From a virus: DNA of 38,690 bases. This document shows positions 4,653 to 38,690 of this stretch, in pieces (positions within the stretch are counted from its first letter, which is position 1; every line of letters starts with the position of its first letter). The notes under the pieces are model-generated. The model ran no database searches, was not told the DNA's origin, and saw only the letters and a list, made by a program, of their open reading frames with translations. The position numbers and the translations under genes are program-made. The DNA lies in the IMG/VR virus record IMGVR_UViG_3300046505_000047, positions 1 to 38,690 of that record. One strand, 5' to 3'.

Positions 4653-4683
4653 TTTTCGTCACCTCTTGAGGAGTGGGGCCAGG

Positions 4684-4712
4684 AGCGTAACCCCTGGCAG
4701 GTTACATGTCTA
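4684..4712 (-). promoter_or_regulatory. Minus-strand promoter with a GTAACC-N7-GGTTAC inverted repeat
   Basis: Reading the minus strand, TAGACA (4712-4707) and TACGCT (4689-4684) are separated by 17 bases and look like -35 and -10 elements. The spacer carries the inverted repeat GTAACC (4687-4692) / GGTTAC (4700-4705) with a 7-base centre. The same design occurs at 8892-8920 and 34222-34251. It would drive the replication and recombination operon starting at 4652. The repeat is a natural operator for a repressor. Confidence 0.6.
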
Positions 4713-8852: not shown

Positions 8853-8891
8853 CGTCTCGTCCTTTCGTCATCGGTTCGGGTTGGTAGCTAG

Positions 8892-8920
8892 AATGTAACC
8901 CCCGGCAGGTTACATTGCAA
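8892..8920 (-). promoter_or_regulatory. Early minus-strand promoter with GTAACC-N7-GGTTAC repeat
   Basis: On the minus strand, TTGCAA (8920-8915) and TACATT (8897-8892) are 17 bases apart. The spacer contains TGTAACC (8894-8900) / GGTTACA (8908-8914), a perfect 7-bp inverted repeat with a 7-base centre. The centre differs by one base from that at 4684-4712. It should start the early operon at about 8885. Confidence 0.65.
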
Positions 8921-9080
8921 GCGGTACTTTCGCCGTTCTCGGGGGTGAAGGGGGCGAAGCCCCATTCGTCCATTCTTGGATATACGTTTCTTCTAGAACC
9001 GGGGGCCGCGGGCCCGGTCTGGTGAGGGTGAGAGTATGAGAGAGGGGGACCAGGACAGGACAACAATATCTATAGCGATT

Positions 9081-28816: not shown

Positions 28817-29388
28817 GCCTTGCCCTCCGCCAAGATCCGCTCAACTTCAGCCATGACCTCGTCGACCGGTGCCCCGATGTCGGCGGCGATCCGGTCTACC
28901 TCGTGCTTCACGTCGATCGACATGTCCACTCGGACGTTGTCGCGGTACTTCTCCGGGCGGAGTGACTTCAGCAGGAACATCACCAGAAGGTCCGAGCCGT
29001 GGACGGCCGCCTGCACCTGATGGCCGTTGCCGTCGTACTGCGCTCGCTGGCCGATGGCCCGGTTCCGTGCGACTGCCTCCAGGGCCTCGATCGCCTCTTC
29101 CCTGGCCACGTCGAACCGAGAGGCGAAGGTCGGATCGGAGGCGAGCCACTCGTAGACCGACGTTCGAGGGACGTCCGCGGACTGGCAGCTCAGTCGGATG
29201 TTGCCTGTGTCAGCGAGCACCTTGAGAAAGGCGTCCTGATTGAGCCGACGCTTGGCTGCCATCGGGGTCTCTTTTTTGGGCGGTACGGCCTGGCGCGGAG
29301 AGCCTGGCGAGGTACGGGCCTTCTTGCTGGCCTGGCGTGTCGGTGTACTGGGCGCTGGGGTGTGTGGCGTGCTCTTGGGCTTTGTCAT
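28813..29388 (-). CDS. terS: Terminase small subunit
   Basis: Encodes 191 residues. A helix-turn-helix region (DAFLKVLADTGNIRLSCQSA, then VPRTSVYEWLASD) and a C-terminal SDLLVMFLLKSLRPEKYRDN segment match small terminase subunits that recognise the packaging site. The first ~42 residues are Pro/Lys-rich and disordered. ATG at 29388 has AGGTAGG five bases upstream; ATG 29262, after AAGAGA, would remove that tail and is an alternative. Confidence 0.8.
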   Translation of the reverse strand: MTKPKSTPHTPAPSTPTRQASKKARTSPGSPRQAVPPKKETPMAAKRRLNQDAFLKVLADTGNIRLSCQSADVPRTSVYEWLASDPTFASRFDVAREEAIEALEAVARNRAIGQRAQYDGNGHQVQAAVHGSDLLVMFLLKSLRPEKYRDNVRVDMSIDVKHEVDRIAADIGAPVDEVMAEVERILAEGKA

Positions 29389-29394
29389 TGCAAC

Positions 29395-29415
29395 CTACCT
29401 GACGGCGTGTAGAAT
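29395..29415 (+). promoter_or_regulatory. Plus-strand promoter with CTA-N12-TAG palindrome (site 1)
   Basis: CTACCTGACGGCGTGTAG (29395-29412) ends in the -10 TAGAAT (29410-29415), with TTGCAA about 16 bases before it. The -10 is only six bases from ATG 29422, so the transcript should be leaderless. The site also lies just upstream of terS on the other strand and may affect both. Confidence 0.6.
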
Positions 29416-29421
29416 AGAGGG

Positions 29422-29637
29422 ATGAACGACTACAACGGGTTCAGTGGTGCTCAGCGTACTAAGGCAGGGGCTTGGATCAGGGCCGAGAGGGCGGCCGGGC
29501 GTCTGCTGCCTCGTCCAACTGAGTGTGTGGCGTGTGGTCAGACGGGGCTGGCGATGGATGACCACGCCGAGGACTACTCGGAACCGTTTGGCCTCCATAC
29601 GATCGGGTTCCCTCTGTGCTGCAGATCTTGCCCTTGA
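29422..29637 (+). pseudogene. Truncated HNH-like phage protein
   Basis: Encodes 71 residues. NGFSGAQRTKAGAWIRAERA, CVACGQTGLAMDDHAEDYSE and FPLCCRSC match the N-terminal two thirds of a small phage protein family that normally continues with CH and an H-x-R-like end. Here the frame stops just after the second Cys pair. The 3' end overlaps the convergent PAPS-reductase-like gene by 161 bases. The promoter is intact, so a short peptide may still be made. Confidence 0.55.
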
Positions 29638-30085
29638 AGTAGCGGGCCAGGACGTGATCCATCTCGTACTGCGAATAGATCGTGCCCGGCTCGTCACCAA
29701 CGTCCGTGACCGCCCAGGACGGCAGCTGACGAACGTGCTCGCGGGTTTGGTCCCATTGGATGTATTCGCGGACATCGCCCAGCACAAAGAGGCTGGAGCG
29801 GAGCGGGACCGCGAACCACGTTAGGTCAGCCCAGTCGAGTTGGCGGTAGAAGTCCACGGTGTCGATGACCGACTGAGGGATCAGCTCCTCGTCGCGGAAT
29901 ACGACCTTGACGGGCAGAGCGCCGTATTCCTCTGCCACCTCCCGGACGAGGTGCAGGGTGACCAGTGAGTCCTTGCCTCCGCTGAACATCACGACCACGG
30001 TGTCGAAGAGATCGTAGATGTGCCGGATCCGGTCCTTCGCCGCGGTGAGGACGTCGATGTCGATGTACTTCTTCTGGCGGCTCAC
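29477..30085 (-). pseudogene. PAPS reductase-like PP-loop protein, probably truncated
   Basis: Encodes 202 residues. The PP-loop SGGKDS is at 35-40, followed by KVVFRDEELIPQSVIDTVDF and YEMDHVLARYFKGK, as in phage and DndC-like PAPS reductase proteins. After about residue 153 the chain changes to a Pro/Ser/Arg-rich tail that is simply the antisense of the HNH-like gene, so the true C-terminal half is missing. GTG at 30085 overlaps the ParB-like stop (GTGA). Confidence 0.7.
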
Positions 30086-30672
30086 TTGTCGGCCGCGATC
30101 GCGAGGTTGATCCGGAAAGCGTGGGTCTCGTTGGCCGCCTCCGGGTAGCGGCGGCGGAGCTTCTTGAGCCAGTCCTGCCAGGCTGCCTGCTGAGCCTCGT
30201 CGTCGAAGATCAGGGCGTACATGACGACCGGGTTGCCACCCGAGGCTTTCCAGTCGGCCTGAGCCATCCGCTCGTCGAGATCGCCTTGATCGTAGCCGGT
30301 GCCGGCGAGGCTCGAGGAGCTGGCGATCTCGGAGAGGAGCTCCGTGAGGAGAGACTCGTCGTAGGTGCCGAGATCCGCGGTCCGGTTGTCCGCGACCATG
30401 AAGGCCTTTGCCTCCGCGTCCGTCATCTTCACGCGGTTCACGGCGACCTCAGACCAACCGAGGGCGATCGCTGAGCGGAGCAGGTGGTTACCTGCCACCA
30501 CGAACCCAGACGAGTCCTGGACGACGATCGGCTTCTGCTGGCCGAACCTCTTGAGGCTCTCAGTGATCGCCCCGATGTCACCGTGTCGAGCGTTGCGAGG
30601 GTGAGGTTTCACTGATCCGATCGGCACGGCGAGGCCGGCGAGAGGGGGTGCGATATGTGAAGGCTTCATCAC
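30082..30672 (-). CDS. ParB/sulfiredoxin-domain protein
   Basis: Encodes 196 residues. PIGSVKPHPRNARHGD, ITESLKRFGQQKPIVVQ, FVVAGNHLLRSAIALGW and VADNRTADLGTYD are the boxes of phage ParB-like domains. The C-terminal ~60 residues may be specific. It forms a coupled pair with the PAPS-reductase-like gene, a combination I recall from phages and DNA-modification islands. The start is GTG 30672 or ATG 30669; AAGGGG fits both. The promoter region is shared with the plus operon. Confidence 0.75.
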   Translation of the reverse strand: MMKPSHIAPPLAGLAVPIGSVKPHPRNARHGDIGAITESLKRFGQQKPIVVQDSSGFVVAGNHLLRSAIALGWSEVAVNRVKMTDAEAKAFMVADNRTADLGTYDESLLTELLSEIASSSSLAGTGYDQGDLDERMAQADWKASGGNPVVMYALIFDDEAQQAAWQDWLKKLRRRYPEAANETHAFRINLAIAADK

Positions 30673-30682
30673 CTAGAACCCC

Positions 30683-30711
30683 TTGCATATCTACACGGCG
30701 GCGTGTAGTTT
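30683..30711 (+). promoter_or_regulatory. Promoter with CTACACG-N4-CGTGTAG palindrome (site 2)
   Basis: TTGCAT (30683-30688), 17 bases and TAGTTT (30706-30711) form a plus promoter for the operon starting at 30761. The spacer holds the best palindrome of the set, CTACACGGCGGCGTGTAG (30691-30708). The site sits between divergent transcripts and could regulate both. Confidence 0.65.
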
Positions 30712-30760
30712 GTGCGTGGCGGCCGGAGATGCCGGCCAGACACCCCGGAGGGTAGCACCC

Positions 30761-31069
30761 ATGAGCGTGACCGTGAAGCCCGAGCGCCGGACCCGAAACG
30801 GCTGGAGCAGCCCCTATGGCGACAGCCCGGAGCGGAGCGGTTGGTATGCCGAGATCGAACTGCTGATCCCTGAAGGCAAGGATGCCGGCAAGGGCGTGAT
30901 CTTCCAAGTCTCCAAGCTGGACGGCGAGGGGCCCTGGACGATCGACGCGGCTTTCAAGAGCAGCTCCTCCATGCCGATGTGGATGAACGGCTTTGGAGCC
31001 CGCTACCTACTGACCAAGACCCTGAACGCAGAACTGGCGGCCGACCTGGACCGCCTGATTGGAGCCTGA
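30761..31069 (+). CDS. Hypothetical protein, first of a plus-strand operon
   Basis: Encodes 102 residues, beta-rich, with GWYAEIELLIPEGKDAGKGV and ARYLLTKTLNAELAADLDRL. No domain recognised; it may be a small nucleic-acid-binding fold. ATG at 30761 follows GGAGGG by eight bases, and an earlier in-frame ATG is rejected. Confidence 0.65.
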   Translation: MSVTVKPERRTRNGWSSPYGDSPERSGWYAEIELLIPEGKDAGKGVIFQVSKLDGEGPWTIDAAFKSSSSMPMWMNGFGARYLLTKTLNAELAADLDRLIGA

Positions 31070-31070
31070 G

Positions 31071-31397
31071 ATGACGACGAACGCGCAGCTTGACGCGACC
31101 TTCGACCTTGCCGGCCTTGTGGCCGACGTGGCGGCCATCCCCGACGCGCCGATGGTCCCCGAGGCGGACGGCGTGAGCGGTCTCTGGCCCAACGAGCGCG
31201 CATATCTGAGCCTGATCCTGACCACGGTTAGCAAGCTGGCGACCATCTTCACCGAGACCGCCGATCGACCCCTGACCGGACGGATCGTGAAGGCTCTGTA
31301 CTTTGCGGCGATCCCGAAGCTGGGCGAATACCCGCCCGCGCAGCTGGCCGGCGTTGAGATCATTGAGGCCCGGATGGGCCAGAAGGGCGGCAAGTGA
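31071..31397 (+). CDS. Hypothetical helical protein
   Basis: Encodes 108 residues with a helical core (ERAYLSLILTTVSKLATIFT, IVKALYFAAIPKLGEY). Function unknown. ATG at 31071 is one base after the upstream stop, with TTGGAG ahead; its stop overlaps the next ATG. Confidence 0.6.
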   Translation: MTTNAQLDATFDLAGLVADVAAIPDAPMVPEADGVSGLWPNERAYLSLILTTVSKLATIFTETADRPLTGRIVKALYFAAIPKLGEYPPAQLAGVEIIEARMGQKGGK

Positions 31398-31975
31398 TGT
31401 ACAGCGGAGACGAGCTCTACGGAGACGACGTGACCAGCGGGCGCGCTGAGGGCGAGAAGTGGCCCGAGCGCCATCCCAAGAGTCTGGGCGCCTGCCTCCC
31501 CGGGATCACTGACGGAGGCGAGCCGGTGAAGGCTCTTTGCCCGAACTGCCAGGGCGAGCTAGGTCTGGACGAGCGGGTGAGCCGGACGATCGGCATGAAG
31601 CTGATCCGCCGGCCGGCACCCGCCGGCACGAGCGGGCCCGCGGCCGAGCTCCTCTATGAGCCCGACACTGACCGCGAGGATGAGACCTTCTGGGAGACGT
31701 CCGAGACGATCGGGCTGGTCTGCCTGAGCTGCGCCCGAACCTGGCCGCTGGGCCCGGCACAAGGCATCGAGGAGCTGATCGTTTCCCTGGCCGTGGAGAT
31801 CATCGTGATCGCCGACGACGGGGAAGATGCCGACCCGGACGATGAGCGTCCGTGCGGATGCCCGATTGACTACCACCTGGCCGACTGCCCGATCCGGACA
31901 GGACCGGCTGACGTCGATGACGTGGCGGACTACGACCGCCCAGAGCGAGACGACGACGAGAGCGAGGACGAGTGA
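31397..31975 (+). CDS. Zinc-ribbon-like acidic protein
   Basis: Encodes 192 residues. CPNC near 48-51 and CLSC near 108-111 may form one treble-clef or ribbon around an insert. The C-terminal third is strongly acidic, with CGCPIDYHLADC as a second possible metal site. Start is ATG 31397 (TGATG overlap); GTG 31394 is an alternative. Confidence 0.65.
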   Translation: MYSGDELYGDDVTSGRAEGEKWPERHPKSLGACLPGITDGGEPVKALCPNCQGELGLDERVSRTIGMKLIRRPAPAGTSGPAAELLYEPDTDREDETFWETSETIGLVCLSCARTWPLGPAQGIEELIVSLAVEIIVIADDGEDADPDDERPCGCPIDYHLADCPIRTGPADVDDVADYDRPERDDDESEDE

Positions 31976-31976
31976 C

Positions 31977-32336
31977 ATGGGCCTGACCGTGTACATCTTC
32001 CGGAGTGACTACGACTCCGAGCAAAACCTGTTCCATGGAAACCGCCAGCTGTGCATCGTGAACGTCAGCGGACCCAGCCATCCGGGCGAGGGATGCCCGC
32101 CGGCCATGCTGGTCCCCGGACACCTGCCCGGGACCATGCGAGTGGTGGCGGTCGAAGAGACCGGCCTTGACCAGTGGACCGAAGTCCGACCCGACCATTC
32201 CGCCGGCCCGATGTTCGGCGGGACGTTTGCCTACACCTCTGACGGTCGATGGCGCGGAGCCACCCCTGACCACGGACTCCTCGAGGCCGTGCCGATCCAT
32301 GACCGCTTCGAGATCCAGACGAGGAATGACCGATGA
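31977..32336 (+). CDS. Hypothetical protein
   Basis: Encodes 119 residues with a beta-rich N-terminus (GLTVYIFRSDYDSEQNLFHG). No motif recognised. It is one base after the previous stop, and its TGA overlaps the next ATG (ATGA). Confidence 0.6.
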   Translation: MGLTVYIFRSDYDSEQNLFHGNRQLCIVNVSGPSHPGEGCPPAMLVPGHLPGTMRVVAVEETGLDQWTEVRPDHSAGPMFGGTFAYTSDGRWRGATPDHGLLEAVPIHDRFEIQTRNDR

Positions 32337-32980
32337 CGTACCGAGAACGCCGCGAAGCCCGGGCCGAGCGGCTCCGGGGCTGGGCTGAGAAGAGCCAGGA
32401 GCGAGCTGACGCCGCGCTCAAGACCAGCGATGCCCAGCCGTACCGCCATGACATTGCATGGCTCACACAGCCCGGACATATCCCCGGGCGTACCGAGACG
32501 TTCGAGCGCGAACACCGCGCCTACCAGAGTCTCGACAAGGCGGCCTCGATGGAGGCCCGGGCCGCCGGCATCGAAGCCCAGCTCGACCGGGCGATCTACT
32601 CGGACGATCCGGACGCGGTCGAACGGCTCGAGGCCAGGGTCGCGGAGCTGGAGGCGAAGCGGGACACGATCAAGGCGGCGAATAAGGCAGCTCCGCGCCG
32701 ACGGCTCTACCCGCATGACGGACAGACGCCTGAGCAGATGGCTGAGTCAGACCGGATCCCGGCCTACGCGCTGACGAACCTCACCGCGGAGATCGCCCGC
32801 AACCGCAAGCGCCTCGAGCAGCTCAGGAAGGGACCGCCTGTGACGTGGTTCCACGCGAGCCGGCGAGACGCTGACGTCTGCTACAAGTGCGACTTCCGCC
32901 GAGCCGACCATGACCTCCACCCGCGGTCAGAGCTGCTGATCTGCCCGAACCCGGACGGGTCGAAGAGGGTGCTGAATTAG
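32333..32980 (+). CDS. DUF3560-like coiled-coil protein
   Basis: Encodes 215 residues. YRERREARAERLRGWAEKSQ and ASMEARAAGIEAQLDRAIYS resemble DUF3560 proteins of phages and plasmids. The C-terminus has VCYKCDFRRADHD and a later Cys, a likely zinc site. Function unknown. It ends the five-gene operon just before the next promoter. Confidence 0.65.
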   Translation: MTYRERREARAERLRGWAEKSQERADAALKTSDAQPYRHDIAWLTQPGHIPGRTETFEREHRAYQSLDKAASMEARAAGIEAQLDRAIYSDDPDAVERLEARVAELEAKRDTIKAANKAAPRRRLYPHDGQTPEQMAESDRIPAYALTNLTAEIARNRKRLEQLRKGPPVTWFHASRRDADVCYKCDFRRADHDLHPRSELLICPNPDGSKRVLN

Positions 32981-32982
32981 GC

Positions 32983-33011
32983 TTGCATATCTAAACGTAG
33001 GCGCGTAGAAT
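32983..33011 (+). promoter_or_regulatory. Promoter of the ParB-like gene with CTA-N12-TAG palindrome (site 3)
   Basis: TTGCAT (32983-32988), 17 bases, TAGAAT (33006-33011) is a strong promoter match. CTAAACGTAGGCGCGTAG (32991-33008) lies in the spacer and -10. The ParB-like protein downstream could bind its own promoter. Confidence 0.7.
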
Positions 33012-33012
33012 A

Positions 33013-33050
33013 CTGGCAAGGCCCCGGGGAATGAGACCCGGGGCCGCCAG
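33013..33050 (+). promoter_or_regulatory. 5' leader hairpin of the ParB-like gene
   Basis: GGCCCCGGG (33020-33028) and CCCGGGGCC (33037-33045) form a perfect 9-bp stem with an 8-base loop, extended by CTGG/CCAG. It begins only a few bases after the likely transcript start. It may be an attenuator or an mRNA stabiliser. There is no T run after it. Confidence 0.6.
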
Positions 33051-33064
33051 TGACGGAGAGCCCG

Positions 33065-33922
33065 ATGACAATGAGCCAGACGATGAGCACCGACGCCTTT
33101 CTGACCCTGCCGATTGAGCGGGTGTCCCCGAACCCCGACCAGCCCCGCAAGACCTTCGAGGTCGGACCGCTGGAGGAGCTGGCGGAGTCCATCCGAGCGA
33201 TCGGGATCATGGAGCCGCTGATTGTCCGACCGGTGGCCGGCGCCTACCAGATCATTGCCGGCGAGCGCCGATGGCGAGCAGCTGGCATCGCTGGACTGAC
33301 CACCGTGCCGGCGATCGTCAAGACCGGAGTGGTCTCCGATGACACCGCGTTTGAGCTGGGGCTGATCGAGAACGCCTTGCGCCGGGACATGAACCCGGTC
33401 GAGGAGGCGGAGGCGTACCAGAAGCTCCTCGAGACCGGGCTGACCGTTGAGGAGCTCTCGACGCGGACCGGCAAGAAGGCCGCCGCGATCCGGACCGCCC
33501 TGACCCTGCTGAAGCTGGAGCCCGGCATCCGCGAGCTTGTGGCCAAGAGGCACCTCACCGCCTGGGACGGCGGACGGCTTGCGACCCTGAGCTGGAGCGG
33601 TCAGACCCGGGCGCTTGACACGATCAACCGACACGGCCTGACCGGGAACGATCGGGACCGCGTGATCGGCCAGGTCTGGCTTGCGGAGCACGAGCAGCCG
33701 ATGTTCGGTGAGGGCGAGCTGGAGGCCCCGGAGACGAACCGGAGTGCAAACGTGCGGGCCGACATGGAGCGCGCGATGAGCGCCCTCCAGCGGGCGCGTG
33801 CGGCACTCCAGGACTGCATCCCCGACGCGCTGACCGTGGAGCTGGCCGAGGCGGCGAGCCGAGAGATCGGCGCGATCGTCAAGGTGACTCGGCAGGCGAA
33901 CGTGGCGAGGCTGCTGGTCTAA
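33065..33922 (+). CDS. ParB-like DNA-binding protein
   Basis: Encodes 285 residues. The ParB/Srx domain spans about 10-100 with LPIERVSPNPDQPRKTF, IAGERRWRAA and ENALRRDMNPVEEAEAY, the core boxes of true ParB (CTP-binding) proteins. HTH helices follow near 120-150 (LTVEELSTRTGKKAAAIRTA). No ParA is seen, so it may be a regulator or a partition adaptor. ATG at 33065 follows GGAGAG; ATG 33071 is an alternative. Confidence 0.85.
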   Translation: MTMSQTMSTDAFLTLPIERVSPNPDQPRKTFEVGPLEELAESIRAIGIMEPLIVRPVAGAYQIIAGERRWRAAGIAGLTTVPAIVKTGVVSDDTAFELGLIENALRRDMNPVEEAEAYQKLLETGLTVEELSTRTGKKAAAIRTALTLLKLEPGIRELVAKRHLTAWDGGRLATLSWSGQTRALDTINRHGLTGNDRDRVIGQVWLAEHEQPMFGEGELEAPETNRSANVRADMERAMSALQRARAALQDCIPDALTVELAEAASREIGAIVKVTRQANVARLLV

Positions 33923-33943
33923 CTAACTGACAGCGTGTAGGAT
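33923..33943 (+). promoter_or_regulatory. Promoter with CTA-N12-TAG palindrome (site 4)
   Basis: CTAACTGACAGCGTGTAG (33923-33940) directly follows the ParB-like stop and runs into TAGGAT (33938-33943), seven bases before ATG 33951. No clear -35 is seen. The transcript should be leaderless, as at site 1. Confidence 0.5.
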
Positions 33944-33950
33944 TGGAGCC

Positions 33951-34151
33951 ATGAACAAACGAACACCCGTGACCCTGGCAGAAGCGGCTGAGGCTCTCGG
34001 ACTCAACCCGTCCACGCTTCGAGTGCAGATCCGTAACGGCAGACTCAAGGCCCAGAAGATCGGAACCGCCTGGTTCGTGACCGGGGCGGAGATTGAACGG
34101 TATCGCGAGCAGAGTCTCGGGAACGCCGGCCGGCCGAAGGGCACCGCCTGA
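33951..34151 (+). CDS. Excisionase-like HTH protein
   Basis: Encodes 66 residues. TLAEAAEALGLNPSTLRVQI and LKAQKIGTAWFVTGAEIERY form the winged helix of HTH_17/excisionase (MerR-like) proteins. It could be an Xis, a Cro-like regulator or an operator-binding partner. With no integrase found, regulation is favoured. Ribosome-binding sequence GGAG is too close to ATG, in line with a leaderless message. Confidence 0.8.
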   Translation: MNKRTPVTLAEAAEALGLNPSTLRVQIRNGRLKAQKIGTAWFVTGAEIERYREQSLGNAGRPKGTA

Positions 34152-34167
34152 CCCCTCTAGACATACC

Positions 34168-34212
34168 GAAGCCCCCAGCGAGCCGGGTGGACAACCGGAG
34201 CCTGGGGGCTTC
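34168..34212. terminator. Bidirectional hairpin terminator
   Basis: GAAGCCCCCAG and CTGGGGGCTTC form an 11-bp perfect stem around a 23-base loop with inner CCGG/CCGG pairing. It separates the converging plus operon (ending 34151) and minus operon (ending 34240). Confidence 0.75.
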
Positions 34213-34221
34213 TGTCTGGTC

Positions 34222-34251
34222 AGCGTAACCTGAAGGCGGTTACTCGGTCAA
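34222..34251 (-). promoter_or_regulatory. Minus promoter-like site with GTAACC-N7-GGTTAC
   Basis: TTGACC (34251-34246), 18 bases and TACGCT (34227-34222) read on the minus strand, with GTAACC (34225-34230) / GGTTAC (34238-34243) between. It overlaps the stop of the resolvase gene and points straight into the hairpin at 34168-34212. Confidence 0.45.
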
Positions 34252-36524: not shown

Positions 36525-37003
36525 CGTGCAACCGTCCTTTGGTATGTCCATCCCAGCTGGGCACGACGCAAGGCCTCAACCGCTGGGGCCCCGATGGCGA
36601 CCAGAACCGATGAGTGATCTGGCCGTCCTGTGAAGCCGTCTAGGCGGACGAAGTGAACCCGATCCTTGAGGAAGGTTATGGCGTCTGCCTTGTCCGCGAC
36701 CCGCTGCCACCAGCGCGTCTCCGTTCGGGCGGCCAGAAGCGAGATCCCGTTGGCGTGATCTATGAACCGCTCGATCCAGATGTCGATACCAGGACCATAG
36801 GGCGGGTTCATCCAGACGAGCCCCGACCACTCGCAGGCGAGCGCATCCTCCTCGAGCGAGAGGAACCGGCGAGCCGGTATCCAGGGGAGACCGCCAACGG
36901 GAGAGGCGACGTCGAGATCGAAGGTGACGCCGAGAGCATTGAAGATGGAGGGCGGCGTATACCACTCCGTCGTCGCCCCGACCTGTGACGTCCAGCGGCT
37001 CAC
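36521..37003 (-). CDS. dam: DNA N6-adenine methyltransferase (phage Dam type)
   Basis: Encodes 160 residues. TTEWYTPPSIFNALGVTFDL at the start, MNPPYGPG (catalytic NPPY) at about 65-72 and WWQRVADKADAITFLKDRV match the phage Dam family (DNA_N-6-adenine-methyltransferase). It may shield phage DNA from host restriction. GTG at 37003 overlaps the helicase stop (GTGA). Confidence 0.9.
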   Translation of the reverse strand: MSRWTSQVGATTEWYTPPSIFNALGVTFDLDVASPVGGLPWIPARRFLSLEEDALACEWSGLVWMNPPYGPGIDIWIERFIDHANGISLLAARTETRWWQRVADKADAITFLKDRVHFVRLDGFTGRPDHSSVLVAIGAPAVEALRRAQLGWTYQRTVAR

Positions 37004-38690
37004 TGCTCAGTCCCAGGCTGGTTCATCGGGATCGGTGCGTTCTCGGCAGAGAGCCAGTCACTGCCCATCCGGACGAAACGGCTATCACGGTTCAGCGACC
37101 GACGGACCGTGTCGATCGACGCCCCGAGCAGCTGGGCGATCATGGAGGTGGACATGCGCCCGGAGCCGATCGCTTCGAGCGCCCGGTCTGCCACCGATGC
37201 ACCTTGCCGGGAGCCGACCTCCGCGACGTAGTCCGCGGTCTCGAAGGTGGCCGTTTCAGGCGCCTGGCCTTCAGGGGACCAGACCAGTCGATAGGTGATC
37301 GGCCGGTAGATCTTGGAGTCGTTGACCTTCGCGTGGCGGAGTGAGCAGGTGACGTCATCCTCGCCGCGTGCGGCCTCGCGGAGCTCCCAGACGGACCGGG
37401 CCGCATTGACCTTGTACACGCTGTTGCCGTGGATCGCCATCCGACCGTCCAGGCGGGTGACATAGGCGCCCGAGGGAACGGTCAGGCAATAGACCATGCC
37501 CTCGTAGGGTACGAGGCTCGATGCTCTGTCCGGCCGGAACCAGGTCGAGCGTTTCTCCGTGATGCTGACGTGGTAACTCCGATACGGTGCGCCTTTATAG
37601 GTCGAGAGGCGAAGGTGCACGTCAGCGTGCAACCCGAGGAGGATGGCGAGTCGCTGGACATCGTCGGCGAGTCGTTCGGACTTCGTGGCATATGTCCAAG
37701 CCGCCGGACCGTTCTGGTGCCCATCGCCCTCCATGAGGGCATCCAGGAGCAGTCGTTGTTGCGGCAAGGCCCACCTGAAGACCTCGGGCGGTAGGAACTT
37801 TGAGCCAGCGTCAACACCGAAGGTACGCAGGCGAGCCACCAACTCCGGCTGTCCGTTAATCACGAAGTGAGTGATTGGCTTGCCCGGTCGTTGGTACGTC
37901 TTCTCCCAACCGTCCGGGAAGAGGCGCCTCAGGAGCGGTCGCATCCGCGATGCAAAGGGCTCCGTCACGCCCATCCGAACCGCCGATCCCGACGCCGATC
38001 CCTCCGCAATGTACCAACCAAGGAACGTGGCCCAGTCGCGATCTACAGCGGCGCCCGGCTCGTCTGGTGATTCGCCACTAGCCGCGAGCAGCCAATCGGC
38101 CGACGTGATCTGATCCGCTTGGACGAAACGCCAAGGTGATCCGATGGCGGACGGCCAGCCCGGCGAGACGATCATGCGATGGTTTGGGGTGACGAGAGCG
38201 TTGGACACCTTCGTCGACCACTGGTGAAGCTCGCCCGCGAACGGGTAGGCGTGGTAGGCGGTCGGTCGTTCCCATCGGTATTGGGTTGTCTCGGGATCGA
38301 AGGCCAGCACGTCCGTCTCAGGATCGAGTCGGTCATGGGTGAGCCATCCGTTCCGGGTCAGGACTTCCGTGTCGGCGGCATAGCAGCCGTATGGCCCGTC
38401 AGAGGGGGCCGGTCCGCCTCGTTTGGTGAACACCGGCTTCTTGACGTGGTCGATGACGATCACGGTCAGGTCCGAGCCCAGAGCCCGGATCGCCTCGAAG
38501 AACCGGAGGGCGCCCTCGTTCGCGTCGCCGTAATCGCCCATGCTCCCGATAGCCGCGCCGGCAGAGTCGATGACCACGAGCACCGTGCCTCGCTTGGCGA
38601 TCTCCACTGAGAGCTGCTCCGCGTCATCCGCGAGGGGCGCGGTGCAACGTCGGTAGGCGATGCGGGGAGGATCGAAGCCCATGCCGGTCG
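37000..38690 (-). CDS. Replicative helicase, C-terminal part with LAGLIDADG intein (continues at 1-1264)
   Basis: Completes the helicase begun at 1264; 38516 is followed by base 1 in the circle. In this half lie the Walker B region (VLVVIDSAGAA), the VIVIDHVKKP strand, and a 321-residue intein interrupting GPYG/SVYKVNAARSVW. That junction is in the loop after the Walker B strand, near a conserved G-S/T-x-x-W-like region of RepA-type ATPases. The spliced helicase would be about 605 residues, with a C-terminal winged-helix-like end (MSTSMIAQLLGASIDTVRRS). The stop overlaps the methylase GTG. Confidence 0.85.
   Translation of the reverse strand, partial: TGMGFDPPRIAYRRCTAPLADDAEQLSVEIAKRGTVLVVIDSAGAAIGSMGDYGDANEGALRFFEAIRALGSDLTVIVIDHVKKPVFTKRGGPAPSDGPYGCYAADTEVLTRNGWLTHDRLDPETDVLAFDPETTQYRWERPTAYHAYPFAGELHQWSTKVSNALVTPNHRMIVSPGWPSAIGSPWRFVQADQITSADWLLAASGESPDEPGAAVDRDWATFLGWYIAEGSASGSAVRMGVTEPFASRMRPLLRRLFPDGWEKTYQRPGKPITHFVINGQPELVARLRTFGVDAGSKFLPPEVFRWALPQQRLLLDALMEGDGHQNGPAAWTYATKSERLADDVQRLAILLGLHADVHLRLSTYKGAPYRSYHVSITEKRSTWFRPDRASSLVPYEGMVYCLTVPSGAYVTRLDGRMAIHGNSVYKVNAARSVWELREAARGEDDVTCSLRHAKVNDSKIYRPITYRLVWSPEGQAPETATFETADYVAEVGSRQGASVADRALEAIGSGRMSTSMIAQLLGASIDTVRRSLNRDSRFVRMGSDWLSAENAPIPMNQPGTEQ
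37423..38385 (-). other. LAGLIDADG intein in the helicase
   Basis: Intein residues 1-321. Block A is CYAADTEVLT with Cys1, and block B is NALVTPNHRM with TPNH at 66-69. LAGLIDADG-like helices are FLGWYIAEGS at about 121-130 and LLDALMEGDG at 213-222. Block F is GMVYCLTVPSGAYVTRLDG and block G is AIHGN followed by Ser+1. The penultimate residue is Gly instead of the common His. Both acidic endonuclease residues (E, D) are present, so homing activity may persist. The unspliced protein would have a broken ATPase. Confidence 0.9.
38517..38690. repeat. Terminal direct repeat, right copy (circle joint)
   Basis: Second copy of bases 1-174 with A at 38563. See the left copy; together they mark the joint of a 38516-bp circle inside the helicase gene. 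Confidence 0.95.

Follow-up and report, generated by a model that had tools for sequence, protein, structure and literature searches.

What protein reads a set of four look-alike promoter sites is the question raised by a plus-strand gene module in IMG/VR virus record IMGVR_UViG_3300046505_000047, all 38,690 bases of which were analyzed here (hereafter, the window). The 18-bp sites, at 29395, 30691, 32991, and 33923, stand before a short open reading frame (ORF), a five-gene unit, a gene for a ParB-like protein, and a gene for a small winged helix-turn-helix (HTH) protein. An earlier note on this DNA tentatively assigned them to one or the other of these two proteins, as regulatory sites and possibly as part of a partition system. 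Searches that started from the protein and, reciprocally, from the DNA site point to an answer: the four sites are likely operators of the winged-HTH protein encoded at 33951–34151, which would be an autorepressor with a four-promoter regulon in the window.

Four sites embedded in plus-strand promoters

The pattern CTA-N12-TAG occurs four times in the window against 0.88 expected, a count reached in none of 100 shuffles, and its only matches are the four 18-bp sites. Their likeness extends inward from the shared ends: agreement over the 12 inner bases averages 7.7 of 12, compared with 3.3 to 3.6 for random or TAG-anchored 12-mers (equaled in 0 of 20,000 draws), and in leave-one-out position weight matrices each held-out site ranks first or second among about 77,000 positions. 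Each closely precedes a plus-strand unit (the ORF at 29422, the five genes at 30761–32980, parB at 33065, and the HTH gene at 33951), and the TAG of each forms the first half of a −10 element (TAGAAT, TAGTTT, TAGAAT, and TAGGAT, respectively). A TTGCA(T/A) −35 lies at 16 to 17 bp in three of them; the 33923 promoter lacks a good one. The coordinates, shared core, and −10 overlap reported in the earlier note were thus confirmed, as was its claim that the sites mark every plus-strand unit and that one lies at the promoter of the ParB-like gene.

Two classes of site can be distinguished, with 30691 and 32991 sharing TTGCATATCTA and 29395 and 33923 sharing AMCTAMCTGACRGCGTGTAG. Promoters of the first class yield leadered mRNAs with a hairpin at the predicted 5′ end. 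That of the five-gene unit (30683–30711, plus strand) combines a TTGCAT −35, a 17-bp spacer, the site CTACACGGCGGCGTGTAG (30691–30708), and the −10 TAGTTT (30706–30711); the parB promoter (32983–33011, plus strand) has the same −35 and spacer length, the site CTAAACGTAGGCGCGTAG (32991–33008), and the −10 TAGAAT (33006–33011). The hairpin GGCCGG-AGAUG-CCGGCC of the five-gene transcript (30721–30737, plus strand) is no better than those of shuffled sequences (z −0.8); the perfect 9-bp inverted repeat of the parB mRNA, GGCCCCGGG-N8-CCCGGGGCC (33020–33045, plus strand), reaches −26.6 kcal/mol (z −3.7). It is possible that these GC-rich hairpins stabilize the mRNA or constitute a separate ParB site.

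In the second class the −10 lies merely 6 to 7 nucleotides ahead of the ATG, and the 29422 and 33951 transcripts are therefore probably leaderless, like leaderless actinobacterial genes. The first of these promoters (29388–29415, plus strand) consists of the −35 TTGCAA (29388–29393), a 16-bp spacer, the site CTACCTGACGGCGTGTAG (29395–29412), and the −10 TAGAAT (29410–29415), 6 nucleotides from the ATG; the HTH gene's own (33923–33943, plus strand) has a weak −35, the site CTAACTGACAGCGTGTAG (33923–33940), and the −10 TAGGAT (33938–33943), 7 nucleotides from the ATG.

Symmetry varies among the sites. Of nine possible dyad pairs, 6, 8, 5, and 4 match at 29395, 30691, 32991, and 33923, respectively. 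Only the 30691 site is convincingly palindromic, and it is also the sole TACnCG-N4-CGnGTA match in the window.

The HTH gene and spacer palindromes travel together

Outside the window, the search for conservation drew on two groups of relatives. The first comprised 6 + 50 capsid and portal relatives, in which the exact or one-mismatch window motif was not enriched; of the regulatory motif envisaged in the earlier note, its rarity in random DNA held up, but conservation in the nearest relatives did not, with G002 the exception. There, an HTH homologue with 49% identity lies 443 bp downstream of the spacer palindrome GTACGC-N6-GCGTAT. This palindrome is contained in the promoter of the HTH operon (TTGACA-N16-TATACT), the best sigma70 match in the G002 genome; it is also the sole TACnCG-N4-CGnGTA match in that genome, and its half-site spacing equals that of the window's 30691 site. 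In a position-weight scan of the relatives, the top hit in G002 was the only meaningful one, by virtue of its position in the HTH operon, as its score of 13.0 alone is within chance. A TACnCG-N4-CGnGTA match in G004 was discarded because it sits in a cluster of GTACCCG/GGGTAC repeats.

The second group came from a profile search, which found HTH relatives with 57 to 67% identity in unrelated phages, where no portal homologue could be detected. Seven (G063, G064, G062, G057, G059, G060, and G065) carry CTACGC-N2-GCGTAG-like palindromes in a sigma70-type promoter, 237 to 949 bp upstream of the HTH gene and on the same strand; those of the G062 and G060 genes read CTACGCTGGCGTAG and CTACGCTAGCGTAG, respectively. 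In all HTH relatives examined the right arm of the palindrome opens the −10. In the first six, no second site in the record reaches 11 of 12 matches, against a background of one per 408 kb. Some records are related to one another (G057, G059, and G060; G063 and G064 weakly), which leaves about four or five independent contexts. Across all nine HTH-bearing records an operator occupies the promoter of the HTH gene's own operon, the window's copy being the degenerate one, and the HTH gene is the sole gene within 4 kb that is common to all of these phages.

The association also holds in reverse. A scan of 2.9 million viral contigs for TTGACA-N4-7-CTACGC-N2-GNGTAG, made without protein information, returned 21 contigs, nine of low and twelve of high GC content. 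The low-GC contigs, which lack an HTH gene within 2 kb, matched by chance. Two of the twelve high-GC contigs end too early to judge; of the ten that remain, nine carry the HTH gene 196 to 961 bp downstream, and five of those (L179, L183, L184, L189, and L194) had been missed by the protein search. With the same HTH hidden Markov model, 1.3 Mb of control loci gave nothing above background besides the window's own protein. This two-way association across phages favors the small HTH protein, and not ParB, among the binders proposed in the earlier note. The notion of one common regulon, its operators fused to the −10, likewise finds support.

Two further results of these scans deserve mention. In L193 (3024, plus strand; GC content 49%) the operator pattern sits in a promoter that looks convincing, and 3.3 kb downstream lies a distant HTH_17 homologue; this contig may extend the operator-HTH association outside high-GC phages. 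The window's own form of the promoter gave 13 matches in viral contigs; the stretches fetched are mostly low in GC, none has a second full match, and they resemble chance occurrences.

The 66-residue protein

The proposed binder (33951–34151, plus strand) matches Pfam HTH_17 (PF12728) at 44.2 bits, above the cut-off of 27. TIGR01764, the “excise” model, matches nine of nine family members, the window protein falling just below the model's cut-off (26.7 versus 28.8). An AlphaFold2 model (pLDDT 81) is matched by Foldseek to Pukovnik Xis with probability 1.00 at a root-mean-square deviation of about 2.2 Å, the E-values being weak, as expected at 66 residues. The predicted fold matches Pukovnik Xis (4J2N, the closest solved structure), BldC (6AMA), RacA, RdfS, and the DNA-binding domains of MerR and GlnR; the model thus suggests a winged HTH of the excisionase/MerR type. 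No HTH relative was found among 50,697 records of known phages, and those in a genome collection were only distant (34 to 42% identity); the collection contained no capsid relative.

Excisionase function of the HTH protein was weighed but not adopted as the leading reading. Neither a tyrosine (PF00589) nor a serine (PF00239) integrase was detected in the window or in most related records, PF00589 appearing in 2 of 16. Because most phages that carry the HTH gene have no integrase to assist, the excisionase label is probably wrong for them, and for members without an integrase a regulatory role is probably the better annotation.

The recognition helix differs along with the sites: it reads [VL]QIR in the window and G002, where half-sites are N6 apart, and QQIA in most others, where they are N2 apart. 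Such a pattern fits covariation of protein and site, as far as two proteins (n = 2) can suggest it.

A proposed autorepressor circuit

We infer that the HTH protein recognizes all four sites and represses when bound to them, and that N6 sites would be read like N2 sites. Each site lies between the −35 and −10 of a sigma70-type promoter, and its right half-site (GYGTAG) doubles as the start of the −10. An HTH dimer bound there would occlude RNA polymerase, since the right half-site overlaps the −10. Occlusion is the simplest mode of action because the operators fall within spacers of normal length (16 to 18 bp) and overlap the −10; MerR-type activation usually requires a longer spacer. The protein would repress its own gene as well as three further promoters (those of the five-gene unit, parB, and the 29422 ORF), so that the plus-strand genes would be expressed, probably early, in a burst that limits itself, with parB a member of the regulon and not its founder.

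Several observations weigh against this circuit. Three of the four window sites are poorly symmetric, that at the HTH gene's own promoter (33923) the least so, and the pooled inner pairs (11 of 24 matching versus 7.6 expected; P = 0.09) are not significant; the word “palindromes” in the earlier note is apt for the CTA/TAG ends and for 30691 (8 of 9 pairs) and overstated for the dyad beyond those ends. The N6 spacing of the window half-sites is common to G002 only, the other phages having N2. Apart from G002, the nearest relatives have neither the HTH gene nor the site and so provide no orthologous test of the window arrangement. Among high-GC contigs, L180 (1159, plus strand) is the lone exception, with a TTGACA/CTACGC-N2-GCGTAG promoter and no HTH gene downstream. 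BldC, a minimal HTH_17 protein, binds direct and not inverted repeats (PMC5859096), and the same is reported for Apl (PMC7498355). Finally, co-occurrence upstream of the gene could reflect an unknown regulator of the HTH operon.

Other candidate readers

This last point defines the main live rival, which we nevertheless judge unlikely: a different dimeric regulator, from another phage gene or the host, would bind the palindromes, the HTH gene being only a conserved member of the operon. Such a regulator would account for the conserved element being an inverted repeat, direct repeats being the usual targets of minimal HTH_17 proteins, and the genes between operator and HTH gene do vary from phage to phage. 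However, these phages share no other gene within 4 kb, any regulator supplied by the host would need to exist across the hosts of unrelated phages, and the N6 pair (the window and G002) shares the [VL]QIR helix against QQIA in N2 phages, as a cognate pair would (n = 2).

More doubtful still is the possibility that the four sites serve the ParB-like protein as both operator and centromere, with the protein acting as a KorB-like repressor, in partition, or both. The protein (285 amino acids; 33065–33922, plus strand) is, judged from its domains, a genuine member of the ParB family: both the N-terminal CTPase-type domain (ParB_N, 1.4e-29) and the HTH domain (HTH_ParB, 4.7e-16) are present, the core is intact, the GERRWRA and ENALRRDMNPVEEA motifs are visible in an alignment, and the best solved relative is Spo0J (1VZ0). 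Its own promoter has one of the sites, and KorB, of the same family, is a proven repressor (PMC11790492), which counts for this reading. Yet the window contains no ParA-type ATPase (zero matches to PF13614 or PF01656) and no parS of the canonical centromere form TGTTTCACGTGAAACA at up to three mismatches; the parS-reading helix, RSTVANALRLL in canonical ParB, aligns with AAAIRTALTLL in the window protein; ParB was not found in the 56 capsid and portal relatives, many of which are fragments; among the nine HTH-bearing records it occurs solely in the window; and many phages without ParB have related spacer operators. The window motif was not found near the distant ParB homologues L001 and L002. 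Because ParA and parS are missing, the recognition helix is altered, and ParB is absent from the relatives and the other HTH records, neither partition nor a leading role for ParB in reading the sites is supported. Both had been raised in the earlier note, and ParB partition was rejected as the leading reading.

Least probable is that no regulator is involved and the motif is the phage's favored sigma70 promoter sequence, duplicated or converged, for although the conserved block consists in part (GTGTAGAAT) of promoter sequence and a similar GTGTAGAAT occurs in an unrelated G003 promoter, conservation covers spacer bases not read by sigma, further strong promoters in this phage family have a different spacer palindrome, GTAACC-N7-GGTTAC, and the motif is associated with the HTH gene across phages.

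Genome context and neighboring elements

The window is probably a nearly complete phage genome because two portal-protein relatives are close to it in length (37,944 and 38,768 bases) and have a circularly permuted gene order. Structural genes lie on the minus strand. The plus-strand module (29395–34151) and its ParB are missing from the closest relatives. Its first gene is a 71-amino-acid ORF (29422–29637, plus strand) with a CxxC...CxxC pattern, HNH/Zn-ribbon-like by eye, with a weak coding signal and no family match; the five-gene unit (30761–32980, plus strand) encodes products of 102, 108, 192, 119, and 215 amino acids, the last with a DUF3560 domain. Behind the HTH gene, on its 3′ side, a GC-rich hairpin read directly from the sequence (AGCCCCCAG...CTGGGGGCTT, 34169–34211) is likely the terminator of the module.

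Breaking into this module on the minus strand is a pair of PAPS-reductase-like and ParB-nuclease-like genes (29477–30672), whose DNA is similar to a pair in Arthrobacter phages, e.g., Salgado; the pair lies upstream of the terminase genes in both the window and such phages. At 37000–38682 (minus strand) a 560-amino-acid protein contains a LAGLIDADG-like domain, probably an intein within a replication protein, the G001 homologue being a DnaB-like ORF. Rfam and tRNA scans were empty.

A second family of promoters with an operator in the spacer was also observed. Its members have a (T/A)nGACA-like −35 and a 17-bp spacer with the palindrome GTAACC-N7-GGTTAC, the TAC of whose right arm starts the −10 (TACnnT); the start context GACGAAAGGACGARACGATG often comes next. 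They are conserved between the window (8889–8922 and 4681–4712, both minus strand) and its relatives G001 (16833+, 12643−, 9717−, and 5457−) and G002 (2171+ and 34345+). Another copy of the palindrome, at 34225–34243 of the window, has promoter-like surroundings on the minus strand (TTGACC-N18-TACGCT), which point directly into the 34169–34211 hairpin and possibly give a short terminated RNA.

Relation to known systems

Autoregulated phage HTH/operator switches are already a known kind. The particular pair described here, with an inverted repeat in the spacer and −10 and four promoters including that of parB, had no description in the literature searched. It ties a protein family labeled “excisionase” to a specific, searchable DNA operator. 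Since the operator predicted HTH genes that had escaped the protein search, the pair can serve as a probe for regulator-promoter switches in uncultured phages of high GC content. In the window, a one-operator autoregulatory loop may have grown into a regulon of four promoters, capturing a ParB-family gene.

The directionality factors RdfS, Xis, and Apl (HTH_17, TIGR01764) are likewise small winged-HTH proteins, sharing both Pfam domain and fold with the window protein. RdfS, a member of that HTH_17 group, binds at its own promoter, which it regulates negatively (PMC11963761), and Apl too doubles as a transcription regulator (PMC7498355). Unlike these factors, which act at direct repeats at an att site, the window and most HTH/operator phages have no integrase, and the repeat is inverted and lies within a promoter spacer.

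Proteins of the BldC family share the single winged-HTH domain without the MerR dimerization helix, and the predicted fold is similar (6AMA). They differ in their DNA: BldC binds head-to-tail direct repeats of AT-rich 9-bp units (PMC5859096), whereas the candidate operator here is an inverted CTACGC repeat upstream of the gene. MerR proteins bind palindromes as symmetric dimers (PMC5859096), and dyad operators between or over the −35 and −10 are shared with classical MerR and GlnR. The spacers here are of normal length (16 to 18 bp), unlike theirs, which suits occlusion rather than activation by untwisting, and the effector/coiled-coil region is absent.

A last parallel is with KorA-KorB of IncP plasmid RK2. 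We regard as rather improbable a phage circuit of this type, in which the HTH protein would bind the four operators and ParB, lacking ParA, would be a CTP-driven sliding corepressor that docks on the bound HTH protein and silences over several kilobases, the whole built on an undescribed family of winged-HTH autoregulators with an inverted-repeat operator in the spacer and −10. Unlike in RK2, an OB-like site was not identified in the window and there is no homology to KorA; like KorA-KorB, the window module unites a small HTH protein, promoter-embedded operators, and a ParB-family protein (PMC11790492).

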